This document shows, one piece after another, positions 19,620 to 45,400 of a stretch of 64,000 nt of DNA. Position numbers and translations under genes: made by a program. How positions within the stretch are numbered: the first letter of the stretch is position 1; each line of letters opens with the position of its first letter. The DNA is from Pseudomonas sp. DTU_2021_1001937_2_SI_NGA_ILE_001 (lineage in GTDB: Bacteria; Pseudomonadota; Gammaproteobacteria; Pseudomonadales; Pseudomonadaceae): assembly GCF_032463525.1 (NCBI RefSeq), contig NZ_CP135971.1:5210501-5274500 (forward strand). Direction: 5' to 3'. The notes beneath the pieces are model-generated. The model saw only the letters and a list, made by a program, of their open reading frames with translations. It did not search any database and was not told the origin of the DNA.

Positions 19620-19690
19620 GCTGATGCAACGTCCGGCATCGGCACCAGAGCGGACAGGTTCATCAGCCGGATCGATCTGGCATTAATCAC

Positions 19691-19831
19691 AATACTGTTC
19701 GCTTAAGCGGCATGTGGCCCGGTGGGAGCGGCTTTAGCCGCGAAAGCGCCAGGAAATTCACTGTATCTGTTGTGAACAGGCGGTCGCTTCGCGGCTGAAG
19801 CCGCTCCTACCCGGCCTAACTGAACTGTATT
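19691..19831. repeat. REP-pair element with inverted ends
   Basis: Begins AATACTGTTCGCTTAAGCGG and ends CTAACTGAACTGTATT, so its outer ends are imperfect inverted repeats. Inside are two opposed GGAGCGGCTTTAGCCGCGAA-type palindromes separated by 'gaaattcactgtatctgttgtgaacagg'. The palindrome is typical of P. putida intergenic repeats. Confidence 0.85.
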
Positions 19832-19856
19832 GGCATTAATCACGAACCTGTTGCGC

Positions 19857-20385
19857 CTATCGCTCGTTCCAGCCAAATACCCGCCGCAAAAAACCACGTC
19901 GCGCCGCCCAAGGCCTCTCCATCAAGACCCCTGGCATATCCCGCCAGCGCACCCAGTCTTCATTGCGCCAGTGCAGCACCTGCAGCGAGTTGCCCAGCCA
20001 GTCCAGGCTGTTGATGCTCGGCAGCAGCCCGGCCGTCGCCGCGCTGGTGCAGTTCGGGCAGCACTTCGTGGGTGAGCCATTGGCGCAGGCGGCGGTTCTC
20101 CGGCACGTAGTGGTGCACGAGCAGGGCGAAGACGCCGGATTCGCTGACCAGAATGCATTTCTCCCAGTGCTCGTGGCTTTCCACCCAGGCGGTGCGGCGT
20201 TGGTCGGGGTCGAGTTTCAGGGTGGCGCGTTCGTCGATGGCGCGGCCCATGAGGCGGCTGAGATCAGCCAGGCAGAACCAGCCCTGACCATCGCTGAGCA
20301 TGGCGCGCAGTCGGCGGCGATGGCGGTAGAAGAGGGTGGCGTGTAGGTGTTGGCTACAGGGGGCGTTGGGGTTGATGACTTCCAT
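19857..20385 (-). pseudogene. BRO-N antirepressor-like protein, frameshifted
   Basis: Starts at ATG 20385 (GGAG eight bases upstream) with MEVINPNAPCSQHLHATLFYR and reads through a BRO-N-type core (GWFCLADLSRLMGR, CILVSESGVFALLVHHYVPENRRLRQWLTHEVLPEL). The frame then stops at 19960. Moving one base at about 20047-20052 restores TSAATAGLLPSINSLDW...RDMPGVLMERPWAARRG to a stop at 19857, a natural C-terminus. So one extra base has shifted the end of the gene. BRO-N proteins with this layout act as phage antirepressors. The leader upstream carries a C4-type antisense RNA arrangement. A sequencing error is the alternative. Confidence 0.75.
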
Positions 20386-20436
20386 GGCACAGCTCCGATG
20401 TGTACTAGAGGCTGCCAAATCGTCGCCAAACGATTT
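20386..20436 (-). promoter_or_regulatory. Antirepressor leader with antisense target sites
   Basis: On the minus strand this leader contains hairpin AAATCG-TTTGGCGA-CGATTT and then GATTTGGCAGC (20421-20411), a perfect 11-base complement of GCTGCCAAATC in the candidate RNA at 20550-20621. The ribosome-binding GGAG follows about 14 bases later. Pairing could hide the start region of the antirepressor gene. Confidence 0.6.
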
Positions 20437-20549
20437 TGGGTGGCAGCTGCACGCAGGTTGGCGAACCGGGTCTAGTACTTGCACCCCGGCAGACCCGAGG
20501 GTCTCCCACGTGCAGCGGCCATAACGGAACAGCAGGCAAGGGGATGCCC

Positions 20550-20621
20550 GCAGCCTTACGGAAGCTGCCAAGTACTAGATGTTCAGGTCGCCAAACCCGG
20601 CTCGCTGATTTGGCAGCGAGC
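20550..20621 (-). ncRNA. C4-like antisense RNA
   Basis: About 72 nt on the minus strand. The first hairpin is perfect, GCTCGCTG-CCAAAT-CAGCGAGC (20621-20600). A single-stranded part follows (CGGGTTTGGCGACCTG), then a second hairpin GCAGCTT-CCGTA-AGGCTGC (20568-20550). Two segments complement the antirepressor leader: GCTGCCAAATC (11/11 bases) and TTGGCG with CGCCAA near 20460. Size, two hairpins, two complementary boxes, and position in the same transcript upstream of an antirepressor match phage P1/P7 C4 RNA. A small ORF (MAARG-type, 20522-20472) could play the part of the P1 icd leader peptide but lacks a ribosome-binding site. Confidence 0.6.
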
Positions 20622-20628
20622 GGCGCGC

Positions 20629-20657
20629 AGGGTAGCGAAAGCGGGGGAGAGGGACAA
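20629..20657 (-). promoter_or_regulatory. Promoter of the C4-like RNA/antirepressor transcript
   Basis: TTGTCC - 17 bp - TACCCT on the minus strand. Transcription would begin near 20622, exactly at the foot of the first C4-like hairpin. Confidence 0.5.
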
Positions 20658-42404: not shown

Positions 42405-45400
42405 GCGACGGACGTTTCAACCTGTCGGCGCTGGCGGTGCGCGAGCGCTCGATCACCCTGTTTCTCATCGTGCTGATCGGCGTGGCCGGCGTGCTGGCCT
42501 TCTTCAAGCTCGGGCGCGCTGAAGATCCACCCTTCACGGTCAAGCAACTCACGGTGATCAGCGCCTGGCCTGGGGCCACCGCGCAGCAGATGCAGGATCT
42601 GGTGGCCGAACCGCTGGAAAAGCGCCTGCAAGAGCTGAAGTGGTACGACCGTAGCGAAACCTACACCCGGGCCGGGCTGGCCTTCACCATGCTATCGCTG
42701 CTCGACAAGACGCCACCGGGCGAGGTGCAGGAGCAGTTCTACCAGGCGCGCAAGAAGCTCGGCGACGAAGCCCGCAACCTGCCGGCCGGGGTCATCGGGC
42801 CGATGATCAACGACGAGTTTGCCGACGTGACCTTCGCGCTGTTCGCCCTCAAGGCCCAGGGCGAGCCGCAACGTCAGCTGGTGCGCGAGGCGGAAGCCCT
42901 GCGCCAGCGGCTGCTGCATGTGCCCGGGGTCAAGAAGGTCAACATCATCGGCGAACAGGCCGAGCGCATCTTCGTGTCGTTTGCCCATGATCGCCTGGCC
43001 ACGTTGGGCGTGGCACCGCAGGACATCTTCGCCGCCCTCAACGGGCAGAACGCCCTGACCCCGGCCGGTTCCATCGAAACCCAGGGGCCGCAGGTGGTGC
43101 TGCGTCTGGACGGGGCCTTCGATCAGTTGGCGCAGATCCGCAATACGCCGATCAATGTGCGTGGGCGTACCCTGAAACTCGCCGACCTAGCCAGCGTCGA
43201 GCGCGGCTATGAAGACCCGGCGACCTTTAGGGTGCGCAATGGCGGCGAGCCGGCGCTGCTGCTTGGTGTGGTGATGCGCGAAGGCTGGAACGGCCTGGCC
43301 CTGGGCAAGGCGCTGGAGACCGAAAGCACGGCAATCAACGCCGAGCTGCCGCTGGGCATGAGCCTGAGCAAGGTCACCGACCAGGCGGTGAACATCAGCT
43401 CGGCGGTCGACGAGTTCATGATCAAGTTCTTCGTCGCCCTGCTGGTGGTGATGCTGGTGTGCTTCCTCAGCATGGGCTGGCGCGTAGGCGTGGTGGTGGC
43501 GGCCGCCGTGCCGCTGACCCTGGCCATGGTCTTCGTGGTGATGGCCGCCACCGGCAAGAACTTCGACCGCATCACCCTGGGGTCGCTGATTCTCGCCCTG
43601 GGCCTGCTGGTGGACGACGCCATCATCGCCATCGAGATGATGGTGGTGAAGATGGAGGAGGGCTATGACCGCCTGCGTGCCTCGGCCTATGCCTGGAGCC
43701 ACACCGCCGCACCGATGCTGTCGGGGACCCTGGTCACCGCCGTGGGCTTCCTGCCCAACGGTTTCGCCCAGTCGACCGCCGGCGAGTACACCAGCAACAT
43801 GTTCTGGATTGTCGGCATCGCGCTGATCGCCTCCTGGCTGGTGGCGGTGGCCTTCACCCCGTACCTGGGGGTCAAGCTGCTGCCGGACATCGCCAGGGTC
43901 GAGGGTGGACATGCCGCCATTTATGACACCCCGCGCTACAACCGTTTCCGCCGGGTGCTGACGAAGGTCATTGCGCGCAAGTGGCTGGTCGCCGGGGCGG
44001 TGCTGGGCCTCTTCGTGACCGCCGTGCTGGGCATGGGCGCGGTGAAAAAGCAGTTCTTTCCGACCTCCGACCGCCCCGAGGTGCTGGTGGATATCCAGTT
44101 GCCCTATGGCAGCTCCATCGAGAAGACCCAGGCCGCCGCCATCAAGGTCGAGGCCTGGCTGCGCGAGCAGCAGGAGGCGCAGATCGTCACCACCTACATC
44201 GGCCAGGGTCCGCCGCGCTTTTTCCTGGCCATGGCGCCGGAACTGCCCGACCCGTCGTTTGCCAAGATCGTGGTGCTGACCTCCGGCGAGCAGGCCCGCG
44301 AAGTGCTCAAGCAGCGCTTGCGCCAGGCGGTGGCCGAAGGCCTGGCCCCCGAGGCGCGGGTGCGCGTCGCGCAACTGGTGTTCGGCCCGTACTCACCGTA
44401 CCCGGTGGCCTATCGGGTGATGGGGCCGGACCCGATGCGCCTGCGCGAGATCGCCAGCCAGGTGCAGGACCTGCTGCTGGCCAGCCCGATGATGCGCACC
44501 GTCAACATGGATTGGGGGCCGCGCGTGCCGACCCTGCACTTCAGCCTCGATCAGGACCGCCTGCAGGCGGTGGGCCTGAGCTCCGCCGAGGTGGCGCAGC
44601 AGCTGCAGTTCCTGTTGTCCGGCGTGCCGATCACCGCGGTGCGCGAAGACATTCGTTCGGTGCAGGTGACCGGGCGTGCCGCCGGCGACGTGCGTCTGGA
44701 CCCGGCGAGGATCGCTGACTTCACCCTGGCCGGCGCGAACGGCCAGCGCATCCCGCTGGCCCAGGTCGGTGAGGTCGAGGTGCGCATGGAAGACCCGTTG
44801 CTGCGCCGTCGCGACCGCACGCCGACCCTGACGGTGCGCGGTGACATCGACGAAGCCTTGCAGCCGCCGGATGTCTCCGCTGCGCTGTGGAAAGACCTGC
44901 AACCGCTGATCGCGCGCCTGCCGGTCGGCTACCGCATCGAGATGGCCGGCTCCATCGAAGAGTCGGGCAAGGCCAGCCAGGCGATCCTGCCGCTGCTGCC
45001 GATCATGATCGCGGTGACCCTGCTGATCATCATCCTCCAGGTGCGCTCGATCTCGGCCATGGTCATGGTGTTCCTCACCTCGCCGCTGGGGTTGATCGGT
45101 GTGGTGCCGGTGCTGCTGCTGTTCCAGCAGCCCTTCGGTATCAATGCGCTGGTCGGGCTGATCGCCCTGTCGGGGATTCTGATGCGCAACACCCTGATCC
45201 TGATCGGCCAGATTCACCAGAACCAACACGACGGCCTGGATCCCTTCAAGGCGGTCATCGAGGCCACGGTGCAGCGCGCCCGGCCGGTATTGCTCACCGC
45301 GCTGGCAGCGATCCTGGCGTTCATCCCGCTGACCCATTCGGTGTTCTGGGGAACCCTGGCCTACACCCTGATCGGCGGCACCCTGGTGGGAACGGCGATG

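Follow-up and report, generated by a model that had tools for sequence, protein, structure and literature searches.

The minus strand of the window, the 64,000-nucleotide stretch of Pseudomonas DNA analyzed here, very probably carries a self-silencing antisense module of the C4 family, in which the variable loop of the RNA (b') and its two target copies (b1 and b2) form a private code that evolves as a set. C4 is a textbook phage antisense RNA, mostly discussed for P1 and P7. The device found here belongs to a chromosomal family that is large and dispersed and whose private codes are matched; at the same site in a close relative the code has been replaced as a set.

Sequence reading together with Rfam and Pfam matches gives the order of parts on the minus strand as promoter, a1-b1, C4, a2-b2, ribosome-binding site and Bro-N gene. 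The predicted promoter (20629..20657) consists of a -35 element TTGTCC (20657-20652), a 17-nt spacer and a -10 element TACCCT (20634-20629), exactly as a preliminary description of this DNA had read it. Both hexamers and their spacing are also present at the orthologous locus L171 of genome G057, and the promoter of a paralogue, L026, reads TTGCCC-17-TACCCT. The perfect hairpin reported at the predicted transcript start is likewise there (GCTCGCTGCCAAATCAGCGAGC, 20600..20621) and is identical in L171. It lies in a c4-a1b1 target region at 20580..20635, where RF03163 scores 43.9 bits (E 7.6e-10), slightly below its gathering threshold of 46.7; a weak isrK match (30 bits, threshold 50) covers the same hairpins. 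The two target copies themselves are seen in the sequence upstream of C4: a1, GTTTGGCGAC at 20587..20596, is the complement of a' and the equivalent of P1 a1, and b1, TCTAGTACTTG at 20569..20579, is an 11-base complement of the C4 loop.

The C4 antisense RNA follows at 20436..20526. It matches the full RF01695 model (1-87) with 67.4 bits (E 6.1e-11), well above the curated gathering threshold of 45, and is thereby a member of the C4 family. The mature RNA would run from about 20520 to 20439 (82 nt), judging by the TTAT/GG...GCCACC context that its ends have in common with P1 c4. The variable loop of hairpin 2, b' (CAAGTACTAGA, 20471..20481), pairs with b1 over 11 bases and with b2 over 8, and a' (TTCGCCAA, 20458..20465), mostly unpaired in the model, pairs with TTTGGCGA in both a1 and a2. 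At the start of the downstream gene, a few bases past C4, stand the second targets: a2 repeats GTTTGGCGAC (20422..20431) and is conserved in L171, and b2, TCTAGTAC (20402..20409), is an 8-base Watson-Crick match to GTACTAGA in the loop. The b2 element ends 5 nt upstream of the probable ribosome-binding site GGAG (20393..20396), which it adjoins but does not cover.

The annotated P1 record has the order a1, b1, c4, a2, b2, icd, ant. Sequence comparison pairs P1 a1 and a2 with a segment past C4 hairpin 2, and b1 and b2 with the hairpin-2 loop; a' of the window has the position of P1 a', and the P1 b' falls in the same loop as b' of the window. The preliminary description was right in recognizing a C4-type arrangement of the P1/P7 design before a chromosomal Bro-N gene, and the covariance search it proposed returned the significant match given above. 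Where it went wrong was in which element is the antisense RNA. It took the first two hairpins, about 72 nt, for that RNA; these are the a1b1 target region, because RF03163 places there whereas RF01695 places at 20526-20436. C4 is the later element, of about 82-91 nt, and overlaps the frame that had been taken for a small ORF.

This reassignment bears directly on the idea of a ~72-nt RNA, made at the transcript start, whose target would be GATTTGGCAGC ahead of the ribosome-binding site. The 11/11 complementarity between GCTGCCAAATC (20617-20607) and GATTTGGCAGC (20421-20411) behind that idea does exist in the window copy, but the segment belongs to the a1b1 target region, not to C4, and the pairing had been expected to be kept in homologues, which it is not. 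At most 6 complementary bases occur in 23 of 23 other copies (12 in the same genome and 11 in G057; in four, where the hairpin was not recognized by pattern, a fixed 35-nt stretch was used). The orthologue L171, with 6, already contradicts the idea, which we regard as extremely improbable. An 11-bp inverted repeat (20471-20481 / 20569-20579), described as a possible leader switch, is present and is the b1:b' pair; the second complement, TTGGCG/CGCCAA, is also present and belongs to a1/a2:a'. The pairings that survive this analysis join b' (20481-20471) to b2 (20409-20402) and a' (20465-20458) to a2 (20431-20422).

In the mechanism we propose, a single promoter would drive a transcript comprising a1-b1, the C4 RNA, a2-b2 and Bro-N. 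The C4 RNA would take a three-stem fold and then be excised from the leader, by RNase P if it acts as in P1. Two of its segments would bind the mRNA of the gene it precedes, a' at a2 and the b' loop at b2 near the ribosome-binding site, and this pairing would block translation, leaving the gene silent in a cell already making that C4 and released in a cell without it. The a' part is common within subgroups of modules, and b'/b1/b2 tends to be private to each module. On the analogy of P1, a copy of the module would be expressed on entering a cell that lacks the matching C4.

The likeness to P1 and P7 C4 (RF01695, RF03163) comprises the RNA fold, the two-segment pairing, the order promoter-a1-b1-C4-a2-b2-gene in the sequence and, presumably at the window locus, control of an antirepressor-type gene. 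Unlike the phage systems, the Pseudomonas modules are chromosomal, dispersed and present in many copies per genome; their downstream genes are Bro-N or DUF6124 genes, not icd-ant, and each copy tends to have a b' code of its own, which at the same site is not shared by close relatives. Unlike P1/P7 immI, with icd and ant in a phage or prophage, the window has a single Bro-N gene amid chromosomal-type genes, and the locus is therefore proposed to work like immI yet is no copy of it.

The Bro-N (antirepressor-like) gene occupies 19960..20385 on the minus strand (141 codons and a stop; PF02498 38.5 bits, cut-off 25.6). In comparison with its orthologue and a paralogue, its frame is disrupted from residue ~117 on: the orthologue, in record NZ_CAJYVE010000031.1 (L166; the same locus as L171), has an uninterrupted 176-codon Bro-N frame, and the paralogue L026 matches the window locus in two frames, residues 1-118 and 118-171. 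Either a recent loss or an error of assembly may account for the break, and because of it the window copy may no longer yield a working protein. Downstream of the gene lies an intergenic repeat (19678-19838) that looks REP-like; three other places on the chromosome carry copies that are 93-96% identical to it.

A broken Bro-N frame, together with the phage-type nature of both C4 and Bro-N, might suggest prophage debris, that is, a functionless immunity fragment left by a decayed P1-like or other phage. There is a phage with the same parts in the same order: Pseudomonas aeruginosa phage 5399 (PQ758389) has c4-a1b1 (46.9 bits), isrK (56.8) and C4 (59.9) matches directly before a Bro-N-like gene whose product is 37% identical to the window Bro-N protein (E 2e-11), and its C4 loop TCCTTCAG matches CTGAAGGA in the leader. 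Unlike the window gene, the phage gene is longer (885 nt, annotated hypothetical) and sits inside a phage genome. The window C4 stretch is matched in 26 phage and 4 plasmid records. The surroundings of the window locus argue against debris, in that 9 of the 10 neighboring proteins scanned with Pfam fall in families that are ordinary on a chromosome (three LysR, AraC, isochorismatase, L-PSP, EamA, GST and LysE) and the tenth has no Pfam match. No phage-type Pfam family is found among the ten, in agreement with the earlier statement that there is no complete prophage here. Elsewhere in the window, at 44694-44764, ARAGORN calls a tRNA-Ala (anticodon cgc) that has no Rfam tRNA match at gathering and is probably a false call.

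The abundance of C4 in the genus also weighs against debris. There are 13 C4 loci in this genome (G000); contig C1 has 11 of them and the 98-kb contig C2 the other 2. C4 was found in 36 of the 57 genomes searched, which besides this genome are 31 of the 35 from the same genus and 4 of the 21 that are more distant. Across the 35 same-genus genomes the count ranges from 0 to 42 (1-42 in the 31 carriers), with a median of 13 and a total of 561. Furthermore, the sequence common to the copies of this genome is confined to the module, beginning about 130-190 bp before C4 and ending in or shortly past the gene at 12 of the 13 loci; the thirteenth, L028, gave no shared-sequence match at that threshold. 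Both modules of contig C2 (97862 bases), which is possibly a plasmid or other element, are with DUF6124.

Most copies stand before one kind of gene. Among 97 loci, every listed locus in three genomes (13 + 42 + 42, four of them below the gathering score), 71 precede a DUF6124 gene on the same strand within 600 bp (11/13, 26/42 and 34/42 by genome). Conversely, 11/11 DUF6124 genes in G000, 26/32 in G005 and 34/43 in G019 have a same-strand C4 no more than 600 bp upstream. The six others of G005 are all far from any C4; of the nine others of G019 two are likewise far from any, and the remaining seven are 735-3312 bp past a C4. Pfam (E <= 0.01) assigned the 87 downstream proteins scanned (ten of the 97 loci had no clear frame and were left out) to DUF6124 in 66 cases, Bro-N in 6 and DUF3077 in 5, and 6 of the 87 match PHROG anti-repressor families; a search against NCBIfam gave nothing useful. 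The AlphaFold2 model of DUF6124 is a helical hairpin (mean pLDDT 77, pTM 0.48) with no match in the PDB at E <= 0.001. Tandem or clustered C4 modules occur at G019:C1:1820921-1827285 and 3533405-3537065 and at G005:C1:3628832-3630617, and tandem or clustered Bro-N modules at G018:C1:1237448-1238943 and 1612908-1614422.

DUF6124 is, moreover, rare in phage records, a further point against debris: one query gave no match there, and a second matched one phage record and no plasmid. A search of IMG/VR gave 5 DUF6124 loci (L181-L185), all of them in contig ends, together with a single weak relative of the Bro-N protein. The DUF6124 genes of the viral collections (L181-L185 and EU982300.1:61-405) lie in end stretches of contigs or records and are perhaps host genes beside prophage ends. 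Among the matches listed for close DUF6124 relatives the source names are Pseudomonas, and the close Bro-N relatives include two named records, both from one uncultured Pseudomonas MAG. Taken with the maintained pairing described below, we consider it unlikely that the window locus is phage debris.

Evidence for a self-silencing module comes from the tendency of each loop to match its own downstream leader. We extended each hairpin-2 loop by two bases of either arm and scored its longest Watson-Crick run with the stretch 18-60 nt past every C4 of the same genome, for 107 cognate and 3628 non-cognate pairs in four genomes (one identical duplicate dropped). Runs of at least 7 occur in 75/107 cognate pairs (10/13, 26/41, 31/42 and 8/11 by genome) and 64/3628 non-cognate pairs (0/156, 37/1640, 26/1722 and 1/110). 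This genome accordingly has 10 of 13 cognate pairs with such a run and none of 156 non-cognate ones. The cognate mean run was reached by 0 of 20000 permutations in each of the four genomes, and a direct-strand control for loop/leader matches gave no excess. An earlier test with 18-78 nt gave runs of at least 7 in 68/97 cognate and 136/3600 non-cognate pairs. The remaining 32/107 cognate pairs, about 30% of loci, have a run below 7. The a' segment is common within module subgroups and less specific than b'.

Duplex energies give a less sharp picture. Although 0 of 5000 permuted means per genome were as strong as the cognate mean, energy ranks the cognate target first in only 10/13, 18/42 and 21/42 cases, less often than exact runs do. 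We think that GC-rich bases dominate these energies; specificity by duplex energy is imperfect. When folded together with its own leader in a pseudoknot-free model, neither the window C4 nor that of L171 showed a gain, and one crossed pair came to -1.5 kcal/mol; the model is uninformative because loop-loop contacts cannot form in it.

An alternative is that C4 RNAs act mainly in trans on other genes and that the match to the downstream leader is incidental. This has been one proposal for the Group 1 C4-like sRNAs of Acinetobacter, whose variable loop was read as possible retargeting to bacterial mRNAs (PMC5320573), and some non-cognate runs of 8-11 do occur within Pseudomonas genomes. The large excess of cognate matches (75/107 vs 64/3628) speaks against a mainly trans role, although it is still compatible with extra targets in trans, and loop and leader change jointly in orthologues, as set out next. 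We judge a mainly trans role to be quite improbable.

The orthologous site provides a natural comparison at one locus. Downstream of the gene, window (19699-18000) and L166 are 98.0% identical in an alignment of 1701 bp. Across the module (20909-19832) the identity is 87.9% in 1090 columns, and in 394 bp lying further upstream (23500-23107) it is 94.9%. Between 20909 and 23106 the window holds 2.2 kb (EamA and LysR genes), and L166 (1884-2485) only about 0.6 kb. The promoter, the 5' hairpin, a1, most of the C4 arm sequence and a2 are kept, and the start of the gene is 99% identical over about 200 nt. The private elements b1, b' and b2 are all replaced: TCTAGTACTTG, CAAGTACTAGA and TCTAGTAC in the window stand against CCATCGCATGC, GCATGCGATG and CATCGCAT in L166/L171. 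The replaced elements of L171 are still complementary to one another, with b'-b2 runs of 8 and 8 within the two alleles and 3 and 6 when they are crossed.

Further sites also have changed loops that are still complementary to the leader of the same allele. Flanking sequence pairs 9 of the 11 C4 loci of G057 with loci of this genome; of the other two, one is a tandem neighbor and one is without counterpart. Codes are switched in five of the nine orthologous pairs (window, L017, L018, L020 and L026; own runs of 6-12 in each genome) and the same or nearly the same in four (L021, L022, L024 and L027). Crossing the five switched pairs shortens the run in 9/10 combinations, the exception being the L018 loop on the L172 leader (9 vs its own 6). 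By energy 8/10 crossed combinations are weaker than the loop's own pairing; the two stronger ones are again the L018 loop on the L172 leader (-19.9 vs -10.8) and, for the window leader, the L171 loop (-17.1 vs -16.2). In L018/L172, a'/a2 have also changed as a set (own runs 7 and 7, crossed 4 and 4). Compensatory change keeps the pairing in homologues, with exceptions in these crossed controls; the code is replaced in matched form at single sites, and the pairing is therefore maintained, which is hard to reconcile with functionless debris. As to the origin of the new codes, gene conversion from a sibling was considered and rejected, since 9/10 switched alleles share no run >8 with the other loops searched (97 + 11); the allele L170 shares 10 bases with the L019 loop.

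What the codes are for is a separate question from how they work. Switched codes at orthologous sites fit self versus non-self marking between strains, although lineage-specific effects of siblings are possible too. The mechanism could also serve paralogue insulation only, with codes changing to escape silencing by siblings and no role in transfer or immunity. Consistent with this, the near-identical neighbors L065 and L066 of G019, whose DUF6124 proteins are 97% identical, differ in code (CCTTTGA/TCAAAGG vs CCTATAA/TTATAGG, each matched), and non-cognate matches are rare in each genome. Insulation alone does not explain differing codes at orthologous sites, although lineage-specific paralogues could drive them, and four of the nine orthologous pairs have kept the same or nearly the same code. 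We regard insulation only as a serious possibility, though one that falls somewhat short of an even chance. The wider proposal, that a chromosome holds up to about 40 self-silencing modules whose codes are under diversifying selection, and that an incoming unmatched module is expressed at once (zygotic induction), is offered tentatively and is rather doubtful at present.

A second RNA family stands before Bro-N genes of the same genus. sRNA-Xcc1 (RF02221), a separate family with another conserved segment (UUUCUUA), is absent from the window locus; at gathering the window has no match, and the count for genome G000 is 0. Among 20 scanned loci with Bro-N relatives, 3 have C4, 8 have sRNA-Xcc1 above threshold and 9 have neither, one of the nine (L114) adjoining a C4 match of 39.8 bits. 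Within the genus, each of the 12 sRNA-Xcc1 matches directly precedes a Bro-N match on its own strand; 3 further matches, in other genera, are not so placed. An initial loop test (11 loops; loci drawn on here are L119, L121, L122, L124, L125, L128, L129, L130 and L150-L164) gave runs of at least 6 in 10/11 cognate and 54/110 non-cognate pairs and did not discriminate, because most loops have one common code. With nine distinct codes (three loops set by eye; L163 and L164 are weak matches), runs of at least 7 were found in 5/9 cognate vs 4/72 non-cognate pairs for the following leader and in 6/9 vs 6/72 for the preceding leader, and 0 of 20000 permutations reached the cognate means. These matches are suggestive of loop-to-leader matching in the same layout as C4. 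In the available text of a 2025 study of Xanthomonas integrons, sRNA-Xcc1 lies upstream of symE in the most widespread cassette, and its regulation is suggested to be divergent from that of symR (PMC12444791).

Both RNA families have been recorded before, c4 and c4-a1b1 being listed in Proteobacteria in the available part of Weinberg 2010 (PMC2864571). As reported in the accessible text of Weiss 2016 (PMC5320573), multi-copy C4-like sRNAs are already known from Acinetobacter baumannii, where a large group of apparently processed, highly expressed sRNAs has a variable loop and the targets put forward are phages entering the cell or other mRNAs of bacteria. The Pseudomonas modules resemble the Group 1 sRNAs of that species, going by the same text (PMC5320573), in their many chromosomal copies per genome and their variable loop. 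Unlike them, for which that part of the report names no cognate downstream target, they have a matched target in the adjoining downstream gene. The variable loop is called a' there, whereas by the P1 record the variable loop of Pseudomonas is b'. Titles and the beginnings of abstracts in the literature covered yielded nothing on cognate private codes, C4 with DUF6124, code switching or Pseudomonas modules.

A consequence of these results is that the downstream gene becomes the likely target for a class of sRNAs whose targets were, in the part of the Acinetobacter report available, left open. They also offer a regulatory setting for the DUF6124 genes. The natural allele pairs with differing codes make both the orthogonality of the codes and their evolution directly testable. 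If the wider proposal is true, the C4 repertoire of a Pseudomonas strain would constitute an RNA-coded form of self/non-self discrimination or of element-to-element immunity, and the same design would have been built a second time, separately, in another RNA family, sRNA-Xcc1.
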